Source: Mytilus galloprovincialis (taxonomy: Eukaryota; Mollusca; Bivalvia; Mytilida; Mytilidae). Taken from it: a stretch of DNA of 64,000 nucleotides. Below, in pieces: positions 23,601-29,600 of this stretch (position 1 is its first letter; each line of letters opens with the position of its first letter). The notes beneath the pieces were generated by a model. The model saw only the letters and a program-made list of their open reading frames with translations. It was not told the origin of the DNA and made no database searches. Location of the stretch: NCBI RefSeq assembly GCF_965363235.1, contig NC_134839.1:98289743-98353742 (forward strand), given 5' to 3'. A program made the translations under genes and the position numbers.

Positions 23601-26600
23601 TGGGAAACAAGTTTTGCAACTTAAATTAATCCCTTTCCACTTTGCGAGTGCGAGTGCTGCCCTGTAGCGGCATTAACCTGCTCTTTTTTCAAAATCCACA
23701 AGGGTGTCTTTTACGTACAAGAGATGTGGCTCTCACTTAACATTAGTCAGCCATTTATTGTCCCCTTCTGACAGACTATCATCGTTTCCTCAAGACCATA
23801 CTCGCAAATGATGTCAAGGGAGAGCTGAAAATTCAGTCCCTGAAATTTTCATCCCAGAACAGGAATCAAACCAGAAACCTTTGTGTTAGTCCTTTTTCAC
23901 TGACTTTTTCTGTCACTAAGCAATGTATGTGTAATAACCTTTTTTAGCTCACATGATTGAAATCATCAGTTGGGCCAACATTAAAAATATCTTTGTTTCC
24001 CCTCCCCGACTGAGGTTATCAGGGTATGGGTAGGTAGGTAGGCAAATTATTTTATTTTATTTCTATATATAATTTTTCTATTTTTAATTTTTACAAAATT
24101 TAACAGGTAAGATAAGAAAAAAAAAGTGGGGGTATTCCCTGTATTCAGTGTACACCACAGTTTTCTGGTGTTAAAAACAGTATACCATGGTATACAGGGA
24201 CCTCCTTTTTTCCTATTCATTTTATGGTATGAAATCTACAAAAGCACACATTCTTCATGTGATAACAATGTTTAATGAAAGCAAGTGTTCAATTAGTTAA
24301 AAATCAAGCATATTTCAAGTCTAATTTGATGCATGTTAAGACTTGGGAATTAAAATTCAATGAATAAAAATTTTCAATAGAAGTGAACATAATTTAGTTA
24401 TGTTCAGTTACACCTGGATCATGCATCTTGGTCAATTAATTCCAAAACAAAAGATTTGTATGTTTTTATACGCCCGGCAAAATTTTGACAGGACGTATTT
24501 TAGTATACAAATGTCAGGTGTCTGTCCGTCTGTACGTCCGTCTGTCCGTTTGTCCGTCTGTCCCTCTGTCTGTCTGGTGTAAACATGTCACACCGTAACT
24601 TGAGAACGATTTATCCAAATTACATGAAACTTAATATAGTTGTTTCTTATGATGGTCAAATGATCTGTATAATTTTTGGTGAAAATAAGATTTAAACTTT
24701 TTGAGTTACTGGGCTTTGTTACTAAAACAGGGGTGTGTTTTTTTTCACATGTCGCACCGTATCTCAAAAACAATTCTTGATTATTGCTTAAAACTTTACA
24801 CACTTCTTAGTTATATTAATCTTAATATCTGTATACTTTTTGGTGATGATTCAAAATTTCATTTTTGAGTTATTGAGTATTTTGTAAATAAGGGAGAGGT
24901 TTTTAGCTCACCTGGCCCGATGGGCCAAGTGAGCTTTTCTCATCACTTGGCGTCCGTCGTTGTTAACTTTTACAAAAATCTTCTCCTCTGAAACTGCTAG
25001 GCCAAATTAAACCAAACATGGCCAAAATCATTATTAGGGTATCTAGTTTAAAAATTGTGTCCGGTGACCCGCCCAACCAACCAAGATGGCCGCCATGGCT
25101 AAAAATAGAACATAGGGGTAAAATGCAGTTTTTGACTTATAACTCAAAAACCAAAGCATTTAGAGCAAATCTGACAGGGGTAAAATTGTTTATCAGGTCA
25201 AGATCTATCTGCCCTGAAATTTTGAGATGAATCGGACAACCCGTTGATAGGTTGCTGCCCCTGAATTGGTAATTTTAAGGAAATGTTGCTGTTTCTGGTT
25301 ATTATCTTGAATATTATTATAGATAGAGATAAACTGTAAACAGCAATAATGTTCGGCAAAGTTAGATTTACAAATAAGTCAACAAGACCGAAATGGTCAG
25401 TTTACCTCTTTAGGAGTTATTGCCCTTTATAGTCAATTTTTAACCATTTTTCATAAATCTAAGTAATCTTTTACAAAAATCTTCTCCTCTGAAACTACTG
25501 GACCAAATTAAACCAAACTTGGCCACAATCTTCATTCAGGTATCTAGTTTAAAAATTGTGTCCGGTGACCCAGCCAACCAACCAAGATGGCCGCCTTGGC
25601 TAAAAATAGAACATAGGGGTAAAATGCAGTTTTTGGCTTATCACTCAAAAACCAAACGGCCTAGCCAAGATCAGATGTTCATTTCATAATGGGTCTATGT
25701 TATAGGCTTGTAAAGACAAGAAGATAAACTTAACACAAGTAATACATCTTTGAACTGAAGAAGAGAATGTAGGGTTTCACAATGAATATCAAATATCATG
25801 TATAGGTGTTACCGTTTTGAAAAAAAAAACACTAAAATACCCGCTGAAAATGGGCAAAATTTCACGTTATGTTGTTTCATTTAAAATTAAGCTGTTTTTA
25901 TCAATTGATAGTTAATAAGTGCATTTCATTTGAACTACATTATTGGTTCACTGTTATAGACAATTTATTCATCTTTCTTTTACTGCTTGTTGCAACAAAA
26001 AATCTTCAGTGGTTACAAAGTTATGATAAAAAGTGGAATACTATGCGTTCGTTATGCAATTTTGTACTTTTGTTTTTAGCTTGCTCAGTGTAGTGATAAA
26101 AGAGAAAAATAAATCAAATTTATGCTGTTATGTGTTTTGTTTTCTCTTCTAGTATATACATTATCAAAATCTACCTCATATATCAATATTGCAGTACCCT
26201 AGCTGGAGATATATGCCATCAAAGTTGGATATACAAAAAAAGTGAAAAAAATGTCTTGTCCGTAGACATGCATTCCCTAGTAAACTGGAAGTATAACAGC
26301 ATTAATGTTGCATTGCTAAGTTCCTGTCCTTTTGTAGATATGAAAACACTACTTACATTTTTTTCTACCATCTATTAATAGAGGAAGAATTTGAAAAATA
26401 TGTCAGAATGTCTTGTCCGTAGACACGTGTCTTGTCCGTAGACATGGCTTTTTATCAATATTGCTTGGCTTTATGGGTCTTAATTAGTCCTATGTGTTGT
26501 TTAAACTTAGAAATATCTTATTTTTAATTAATTAATGGCAATTTAAGTGTTCTAATTTTTTGTAAAATTAATTTACAGGAGTGGATTTTAAAAAGTGACA

Positions 26601-29600
26601 TATTATCAGTCATAAAAAGCATAACTTACTTTACTTCAATATCTTTATTCCAGTTGCTGCTTACCTTAAAAGACTAACTAAATCAAATGAAGCAAAAGTA
26701 TTTCTCCCTATCTGACTTTATTTTTCGCATTTCAGTATTACCAGTAGATGAGGAAGTGTCTACGGACAAGACACTTGTACATAACAAGTATTAAATTCAA
26801 TTATTTGTCTGCTTTGGAACTTAAATCTTATTTATAGATGATGAAAGTTATCTATTCAAATTAAAACTCAGTATTTTCAAGATAAATATAGTCACAATTA
26901 AGTCTAACAGATTTTTTTTTTAACTGGAATTGTCTTGTCCGTAGACATTACCACAATACATTTGTATCCAATTTCCTTGAGTTCAGCCTAATTTGATAGA
27001 TAAAATGTATGTCATTTTTTGAAGAGAACACATCCAACTATGTTAAAATTGAGTTTCAATAATAGTTTGATTGTTTAAAACAGTCAGATATATGGATTTC
27101 AGTAAAAAGAATGTGTCTTCATTTTGGCTTAATCAATAAATTATGTAGATATGTAAAGAATTATGGGTACATTTTTATATTTTCCAAAATTTAAAAAACA
27201 CAGCTTAAAATTTATTTGGTAACTTTTATTCTTAACTTTAACAATCATCTTTGAAAGCATTTAATTGATTCTCAATAAAATGTCTTGTCCGTAGACATTA
27301 TCACAAGGTATTTGTTTCCATTTTCTTCAAAGTTAAGCATCATTTGATAGATAAACCTGATAAAATGTATGTTTTTTTTTTTCAAGAGAACACTTTCAAC
27401 TATGTCAAAATTAGGTTTTAATAATGCATTTCATTAAATATGAATGCAATGTCTTGTCCGTAGACAAAACATATCAATTGTATTGCTAAGTTTGATTGTT
27501 TATTGTAAGAATATGCATCAAGTTATTTTAATGTTCTATACACCAAAAGAAAGGGATTTTTTGGAAGTTTTGTTATTTATAGATTAGTTTAAGTATAGTT
27601 TGATCAGATAAGATTAATGATCAAAGACAGCTACTGTTGTTTGAAATAACTGTGAGTTAAACATGTTCTTCTCATTTTTTTTTCAATTAAAATATTTGAC
27701 ATTCAATAATTCTAAACATATTTTGTTGTCTTTGTCATCGACCAAAAATCTAACACTGGTGACCATGTCTTGAAGGCAACCATTAAAGAAAATCATACAG
27801 TTTTTAAAAACCATTTATTTAATAAAAATTTAAAATATTTCTTTCAAAATCTGCATGTAATTATATAAATGCTTCCAGTGTTAGCCTAATGATGGCAATT
27901 TTTCATAATTTAAACCATTTCTGTACCAAAATATCAAAAGAGTTTTTTCCTGAGGTGACACTCAATTTTGACTTCATGTGAAACACAAAATGAACATCTG
28001 ATTGTGGCTAGGCCGAAAGCATTTAGAGCAAATCTGACATGTGGTAAAATTGTTTATCAGGTGAAGATCTATCTGCCCTGAAATTTTGAGATGAATCGGA
28101 CAACCCGTTGATAGGTTGCTGTCCCTGAATTGGTAATTTTAAGGAAATTTTGCTGTTTTTGGTTATTATCTTGAATATTATTATAGATAGAGATAAACTG
28201 TTAACAGCAAAAATGTTCAGCAAAGTAAGATCTACAAATAAGTCAACATGACCAAAATGGTCTGTTGACCCCTTTAGGAGTTATTGCCCTTTATAGTCAA
28301 TTTTTTACCATTTTTCGTAAATCTTAGTTATCTTTTACAAAAATCTTCTCCTCTGAAACTAATGGGCCAAATTAAACCAAACTTGGCCACAATCATCATT
28401 CGGGTATCTAGTTTAAAAATTGTGTCCAGTGACCTGGCCAACCAACCAAGATGGCCGCCACGGCTAAAAATAGAACATAGGGGTAAAATGCAGTTTTTGG
28501 TTTATCACTCAAAAACCAAAGCATTTAGAGCAAATCTGACATGTGGTAAAATTGTTTATCAGGTCAAGATCTATCTGCAACAACAAAAGAGAGTTTTTAA
28601 CGACCTCAGCTGGCTATACAACCCTTGCACAATCAACTGAATTTTGCAGAAATCATTAATAGGATAGATTGCCCTTATATGATAATTTTTTATTACCTTT
28701 TTGTTTTTTTGGCAAAGGGGGAGCGGGGGGGGGTTGAGCAACAACAAAACAACTTCACAACTTTCTCATTACTTTGCATTTCTCGTTAGATAAATTTTAC
28801 AAAATTCTTCCCTGAAACAACTGTCAAATTTAAACAAACTTGGTTTAAATCACCACTAGGATATCCAGGGACCACTGTGTATGATGACCTTGCCTGCCCA
28901 CATGGCTGAAATAAAACATAGGTTTCAAACGCACTTTTTAGTATTATATCTCTGAAATTAAACGACAGTACAACAGTTGCATTTATCATGCATCAATTGT
29001 AAATAAAAATATCAGGTGAGCGACACAGGGTCCTTGGACCCTCTAGTTTTTACATGTCGCGCTGTATCTCAAAAACGATTTATGATTATTGCTTAAAACT
29101 TTACACACTTCTTTGTTATATTAATCTAAAGATCTGTATACTTTTTGGTGATGATTCAAAATTTCATTTTTGAGTTATTGAATATTTTGTAAAAAAGGGG
29201 GAGGGTTTTTTTTTTACATGTCGTGCCGTATCTCAAAAACGATTTATGATTATTGCTTAAAACTTCACACACTTCTTTGTTATATTAATCTAAAGATCTG
29301 TATACTTTTTGGTGATGACTCAAAATTTTATTTTTGAGTTATTGAGTATTTTGTAAAAAAAAAAAAAAAAAAGGTGGGGGGGGGGGTGTTTCACATGTCC
29401 CACGGTGTCTCAAAAACAATAAACGGCTATTGCTTAAAACTTTCTCAGAAACTATTGATGATTATTGCATAAAACTTCCACACAAGACGTCGGGTGTATC
29501 ATGCGCTCATGGCGCAGCTGTTTATTTAGAGTTCTAGAAAAACAAGGCTTCACTTATTCATGTTTTGTTGTTCCTAGAATACTTTGAGTATTTACAAATT

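Follow-up and report, generated by a model that had tools for sequence, protein, structure and literature searches.

Four satellite-cored repeat families of Mytilus galloprovincialis with a Helentron-type end plan, two of which share their ends with separate Rep-coding Helentrons

A 64,000-nucleotide stretch of the Mytilus galloprovincialis genome (the window; C2:98289743-98353742 of a 1.385-Gb genome) carries four repeat families, here called A, B, C and D, and raises the question of what these elements are and whether one autonomous partner moves them all. The first-pass annotation had given all four a Helentron-like or Helentron-associated interspersed element (HINE)-like end architecture and had taken their convergence on one plan to suggest a shared helper. 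Helentrons are rolling-circle transposons with a Rep/helicase that bears a C-terminal endonuclease. Judged from their sequences, A to D are very probably HINEs, that is, internally deleted relatives of Helentrons, with A and B each following a Rep-coding Helentron of its own and with the common plan owed to common descent and not to one helper.

All four families showed the same end plan: a 5' hairpin at the terminal word, a GTCC/GTCG-type microsatellite, a tandem core, a 3' inverted word, a second hairpin and a defined end. Subterminal inverted repeats were present at both ends of A to D in the window, and for A and D also in the genome copies in which both ends were seen. As first described, each of the four also has its terminal word in inverted form at a subterminal place near the 3' end. 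The core periods were 164 bp for A, 161 bp for C, 168 bp for D and ~501 bp for B (by self-match), in agreement with the earlier estimates of about 163, 161, 168 and 500 bp. Core sizes near 160-170 bp are also found in the bivalve elements Pearl and CvA/CvE/CvG. The claim that the 5' word folds with a nearby complement was borne out, as the 5' hairpins of A, B, C and D folded better than dinucleotide shuffles with z-scores of -5.9, -5.5, -3.8 and -3.1, and only 0, 0, 0 and 2 of 200 shuffles, respectively, folded as well. The two A sequences folded were genome copies and not the window's.

The genome gave 138 matches to the Rep domain PF14214 (Helitron_like_N), many with open frames of >2,000 aa, while none of 14 control genomes gave a match. 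The Rep groups were defined from match score and range of match and not from a tree. The only Rep on contig C1 near the listed B 3' places (C1:2922923) was used as the seed, with a B 3' end 7.0 kb downstream on the same strand. We tested the 3' offset that this predicts in 10 further members of the Rep group, and a B end was present in 5 of them (6 of 11 with the seed). These B-type 3' ends were identical through CTAG and then ran into different flanks. The seed Rep also had a B 5' end 10.3 kb upstream on the same strand, together with the B microsatellite and the ~501-bp core, and among the matches listed none to the searched B words lay on that strand between the 5' and 3' ends. Three other members had no B 5' end in the stretch up to 5.6 kb upstream of their Rep. 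The B-type Helentron has bounds of C1:2916316-2933654 (17.3 kb) and contains a D copy. The 3' hairpin of the B-type members, GGGTCC/GGACCC, is the version carried by the window copy at 24905-29046. Its proteins included a Rep (PF14214, 93.5 bits) and a C-terminal endonuclease match at E 1.4e-4, which is below the Pfam cut-off, with a GDFN stretch noted by eye in the endonuclease region. The B-type protein also carries a DUF6570 and a herpes-tegument-like (deubiquitinase) domain ahead of the Rep (open reading frame (ORF) at L070). Deubiquitinase domains of this kind have been reported for Helentrons, those of molluscs included (PMC9741609).

The A-type Rep group had two members seen, C10:26032464 and C8:63882936, both of which end with the A 3' end. 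The two were alike up to GTTTATTCA and divergent right after it, and the 862 bp before this end showed no similarity to the A copies compared. The C10 member also carries the A 5' end, the microsatellite and 2.8 units of a 161-bp core on the same strand, which gives the A-type Helentron bounds of C10:26028131-26040388 (12.3 kb), with the 5' end known from this one member. Its longest matches to A HINEs had 89.5-92.8% identity over 441-710 bp, and the window's A core was ~91-92% identical to its core. The C8 member had the unique part (query 304-601) 6.3 kb upstream of its Rep and core units 41 bp further upstream, with the middle of the query absent, and the core-to-unique junction was whole at a C6 and a C1 locus (88 and 84%). 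Because the core and its adjoining unique sequence recur at other loci, the core belongs to the autonomous A element. The A-type proteins included a Rep (PF14214, 97.6 bits) and a PIF1 helicase (PF05970, E 2.8e-21), and two ORFs upstream of the Rep had no Pfam match.

Rep genes with family ends were thus found for A and B, but none for C or D. A and B match the ends of two different Helentrons, whose Reps are 48% identical over 179 aa and whose C-terminal fragments align at 31%, so the single shared helper first suggested is not supported for these two families. We consider it very improbable that one autonomous Helentron mobilises all four, also because the word of B agrees with those of A, C and D in no more than 3-4 of 10 positions. 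What speaks for one helper is that the words of A (ATACGCCCGT), C (ATACGACCGC) and D (ATACCCCCGC) agree in 7 of 10 columns (chance ~4e-7, an approximate value with the register chosen by eye), that T or TT follows most copies in every family, and that C and D, for which no helper was found, could share that of A. The 7 of 10 agreement also overturns the earlier statement that the families have no obvious sequence in common, which is true of B alone. C and D may have Helentrons of their own or may use A's, and it is solely by their end plan that they are placed among the HINEs. We infer that the common plan is explained more simply if the families descend from one ancestral Helentron than by a shared helper.

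For C and D we also used patterns that exclude the HINE context, which gave 88 D and 18 C matches, although helpers that share the upstream bases of the HINEs would escape these patterns. Two of the D variant matches were within 25 kb of a Rep when all 138 Reps were compared, one 19.4 kb downstream and the other 12.1 kb upstream. The largest Rep group (L017-L038) had near-equal scores (~115-128 bits) and open frames up to 3,163 aa, which may point to recent activity, and one member had a weak C-terminal endonuclease match. A palindromic structure followed the ORF in 7 of 8 fetched members, but we rejected it as a terminus since conserved sequence continues past the palindrome. Two stretches of this group (L125 and L126) were scanned for the family words and contained none.

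The 3' words occurred 1,857 times in the genome for A (23-mer, up to 2 mismatches), 9,546 times for B (16-mer), 6,542 times for C (17-mer) and 1,563 times for D (15-mer), and the reversed-pattern controls were 0 in all four families. The exact ends were tabulated from 30 A loci (the window's included), 10 C copies, 10 D copies and 20 B stretches. The 30 A loci were retrieved by exact match to a word containing the 3' hairpin and so carry no information on its conservation; L067/L068 and L040/L065 share flanks and are not independent, and L049 is the window's own copy. The A 3' end reads GCTGTTTA and then TT, with GCTGTTTATT in 23 of the 30 loci, or 25 with GCAG allowed. We placed the A end at GCTGTTTA (GTTTA) because host homology resumes at the next T in nested copies, and both A-type Helentrons diverge just beyond it. 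The B 3' end was CTRR in 18 of 20 stretches, with TT next in 18 of 20. The C 3' end was CTGG in 8 of 10, followed by T in all 8 and by TT in 6, and the other two ran into T tracts. All 10 fetched D copies ended in CTTG and then TT, and the window copy in CTGG. The CTRR-like ends first proposed for the families therefore held for most copies of B and C, but A ends in GTTTA and not in GCTG, and the fetched D copies end in CTTG.

Of the 30 loci, 12 had an A 5' end; the bases just before it were TT in every case and TTTTT in 11, and the other 18 loci had no match within 1.5 kb. The longest open frame upstream of the A 3' end across the 30 loci was 216 aa. The D 5' word was found in three of five fetched stretches and in the window; it is preceded by a conserved TAATT (TAATC in the window), so the D element starts ~5 nt beyond the word. 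The usual A word is ATACGCCCGTC, and the exact 11-mer ATACGCCCGGC is a mutated copy with 20 genome matches. We dropped this 11-mer as a search handle for A, since the A hairpin follows it in only one of the 8 fetched copies, the window's; another of these loci, L005, contains an A-like 3' end at a different place.

The target sites were read from nested copies. Three A copies are nested in other repeats, two of them in B and one in a fifth family, E, and each could be compared with a paralogous empty site. Host homology continued up to the T before ATAC and resumed at the T after GTTTA, all three sites being in T tracts, and A gained exactly two T at each. This gain could be a TT duplication, or the two T could be part of the element itself. 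The B copy at 24905-29046 stands in a T tract of the A core, with T5 on each side compared with T8 and T10 in two neighbouring units. The D copy inside the seed B-type Helentron has an empty counterpart (L081) that reads TTTACATGAAAC, where there is no T tract and, at this one site, no duplication longer than 1-2 bp.

The two-T gain, together with terminal words that are inverted copies of each other, is what cut-and-paste miniature inverted-repeat transposable elements (MITEs) with terminal inverted repeats (TIRs), a DDE transposase and a TT target duplication would leave. We regard this origin as extremely unlikely. At the 3' side the word lies inside the element, with a hairpin and then an asymmetric end after it, the D site lacks a longer duplication, and, as a strong counterpoint, the same ends bound Rep genes. 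True TIRs with a fixed target duplication were accordingly not what the aligned copies showed, although the TT gain of A remains (3 of 3 sites). The HINE parts are present in all four families and the ends of A and B are common to Rep-coding Helentrons of the same genome, in line with the identity first assigned.

If A to D are HINEs, their transposition can be outlined from what is known of Helitrons. The cognate Helentron's Rep would nick at the 5' end, the helicase would unwind and displace one strand, termination would be signalled by the 3' hairpin and the 3' end, and the strand would join a T-rich target with the endonuclease assisting. Recognition would go via the terminal word and the hairpins, with each family following the Helentron that shares its ends. 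Both Helentrons carry the tandem core of their family, so the satellite-like core appears to derive from the autonomous element and not from later capture by a HINE. A more tentative idea, which we think possible but rather doubtful, is that the core is a resident Helentron part kept for replication or expression, in which case a large share of the dispersed satellite DNA in genomes like this would be Helentron 5' sequence amplified through internally deleted copies, with an end code for each lineage that only its own Rep reads.

A number of results, in addition to the two-T gain of A and the D target without a T tract, weigh against reading A to D as HINEs with separate Helentrons. Five of the 10 predicted B-type 3' places had no B end at the expected offset. 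The B 5' end was beside a Rep in one copy only, where the chance of such a neighbour is ~2.5% at the listed density. HINE copies are common and nested in one another, and next to a Rep of a third group (L144) there was a B-like end, which we do not claim because it was missing at the predicted place in that group's second copy (L147). On the last three counts, the A and B ends beside Reps could be chance neighbours, independent HINE insertions next to unrelated Helentrons. We give this very little credence, because the 5 of 10 B-type places and both A-type members have the end at the expected offset with differing flanks, the 862 bp before the A-type end are unlike the A copies compared, and core and neighbouring unique sequence are present together again at independent loci.

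The protein and end evidence for separate Helentrons also has gaps. The B-type fragment begins so late that it covers the helicase end only, and Pfam called no PIF1 helicase in it; nor did Pfam call an endonuclease in the A-type fragment read, which ends inside that region. No RPA domain was above the cut-off in the ORFs tested, with weak OB-fold matches below it in another Rep group. Nine stretches of 2.5-3.5 kb downstream of Reps (L134-L139, L144-L146) contained no C or D end, and A and D do not end in CTRR. The folding of the 3' regions was weak, with z-scores of -1.2, -1.1, -1.5 and -2.0 for A, B, C and D and 25, 29, 17 and 12 of 200 shuffles folding as well. The second 3' hairpin of the first-pass annotation is therefore weak by energy, but a palindrome near the 3' end was present in all four families. 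Of 34 rows, which stand for 33 places because L049 duplicates a window copy, 31 had the 7-bp B stem paired throughout, and the stem exists in three versions, GGGTCC/GGACCC, GGCTCT/AGAGCC and GGCTTT/AAAGCC, the first three bases having belonged to the search word. These three paired versions are better evidence for the predicted B 3' hairpin than energy is. The D hairpin bases were intact in 8 of 10 fetched copies.

The positions of the features are given in Table 1. All four families were located where first described, with boundaries shifted by a few bases. The B copy at 24905-29046 does have B ends there, but it is not one uninterrupted element, and the copy at 54466-56930 has its 3' end but no B 5' word in a search with up to 2 mismatches. 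An Rfam search of the window gave no match.

Table 1. Features of the window (window positions) and places of family E (positions within the oriented locus).
Feature	Position	Strand	Remarks
Family A element (HINE-like)	24468-29524	+	Interrupted by nested B element; ends compared with 30 genome loci including the window copy
A 5' terminal hairpin	24468-24498	+	Mutated version of ATACGCCCGTCAAAATTTTGACGGGACGTAT
A microsatellite (TGTC/GTCC)n	24519-24576	+	
A tandem core, 164-bp unit	29047-29360	+	Further core part at ~24740-24904
A 3' subterminal inverted copy of terminal word	29486-29499	+	
A 3' hairpin TGCGCTCATGGCGCA	29502-29516	+	Followed by GCTGTTTA, then TT
Family B element	24905-29046	+	Nested in T tract of A core; 3' hairpin version that of B-type Helentrons
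B 5' terminal hairpin	24905-24935	+	By folding
TIR transposon, unrelated, 2,359 bp	25657-28015		Nested in B; not a Helentron part
Family B element	40896-41626	-	5' and 3' ends both present
Family B element	54466-56930	-	3' end present, 5' end not recognised; contains nested C copy
Family C element	4764-6666	-	5' ATACGACCGC, 161-bp core, 3' CTGG
Diverged family C copy	~54813-55930	+	Nested in B; 3' end uncertain; by eye
Family D element	57807-58552	-	5' TAATC-ATACCCCCGC, 168-bp core, 3' CTGG in this copy
Family E	L083 (oriented) ~776-1240; L137 (oriented) ~1137-1608		By eye

Family E, recognised by eye, follows the same plan, with a 5' ATGCCCCACCT hairpin, a GTCC-type microsatellite, a ~165-bp tandem core and a 3' part made up of GTGGGGCATC, a hairpin and CTTG then TT. 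On C1 at 29.02-29.61 Mb, there were five places where an A and a D 3' end of the same strand were separated by ~3.75-3.79 kb, which suggests composite copies that moved or were duplicated together. The TIR transposon nested in B has 28-bp TIRs (26/28 matching), AAA on both flanks and no open frame >92 aa. It contains seven exact copies of the 17-mer TGTCTTGTCCGTAGACA, where 0.02 would be expected in the window. This 17-mer occurs 1,143 times in the genome, and its first 100 places, all on C1, form 16 clusters and one single with near-equal spacing; the near-constant spacing suggests that the sites are kept while the spacers drift by a few bases.

We compared A to D with known systems. Canonical Helitrons (PMC4067079) are alike in the Rep/helicase, the 3' hairpin and the CTRR found in most B and C copies. 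However, A to D have no 5' TC, they do have inverted words, and A inserts in T tracts and not between A and T (3 sites). HINEs and Helentrons were defined from mite, Culex and Drosophila (DINE-1) elements (PMC4067079), and these HINEs share with ours subterminal inverted repeats, palindromic words, a 3' palindrome, T-rich targets and some tandem repeats, as well as ends in common with Rep/helicase/endonuclease Helentrons. They differ in sequence and host; in addition, our families A and B have cores that recur in their Helentrons, and the one D empty site is not T-rich. The Pearl and CvA/CvE/CvG elements, named in PMC7492417 and PMC11136912, have the same plan with tandem cores, a likeness by description and not by sequence. 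Further related literature includes PMC7992393, PMC11136912, PMC10294476 and PMC12818792, and in a search limited to openly licensed papers none of the listed titles and abstract openings linked a mollusc HINE to its Helentron.

The Cg_HINE elements of the Pacific oyster (PMC7492417) resemble A to D in the subterminal inverted repeat with its adjacent complementary inverted repeat, the GTCY-type microsatellite, the satellite-like core, the 3' subterminal inverted repeat with a palindrome, and the presence of several families per genome. The oyster HINEs could not be related to the autonomous elements checked in that study, whereas two partners were identified here, both with the core. The HINE/Helentron kind is thus already known, and what is new is the two separate helpers and the cores resident in autonomous elements. 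With two satellite-cored families tied to two distinct core-bearing Helentrons, the helper question becomes testable family by family, and an autonomous element is indicated as the source of dispersed satellite-like arrays.

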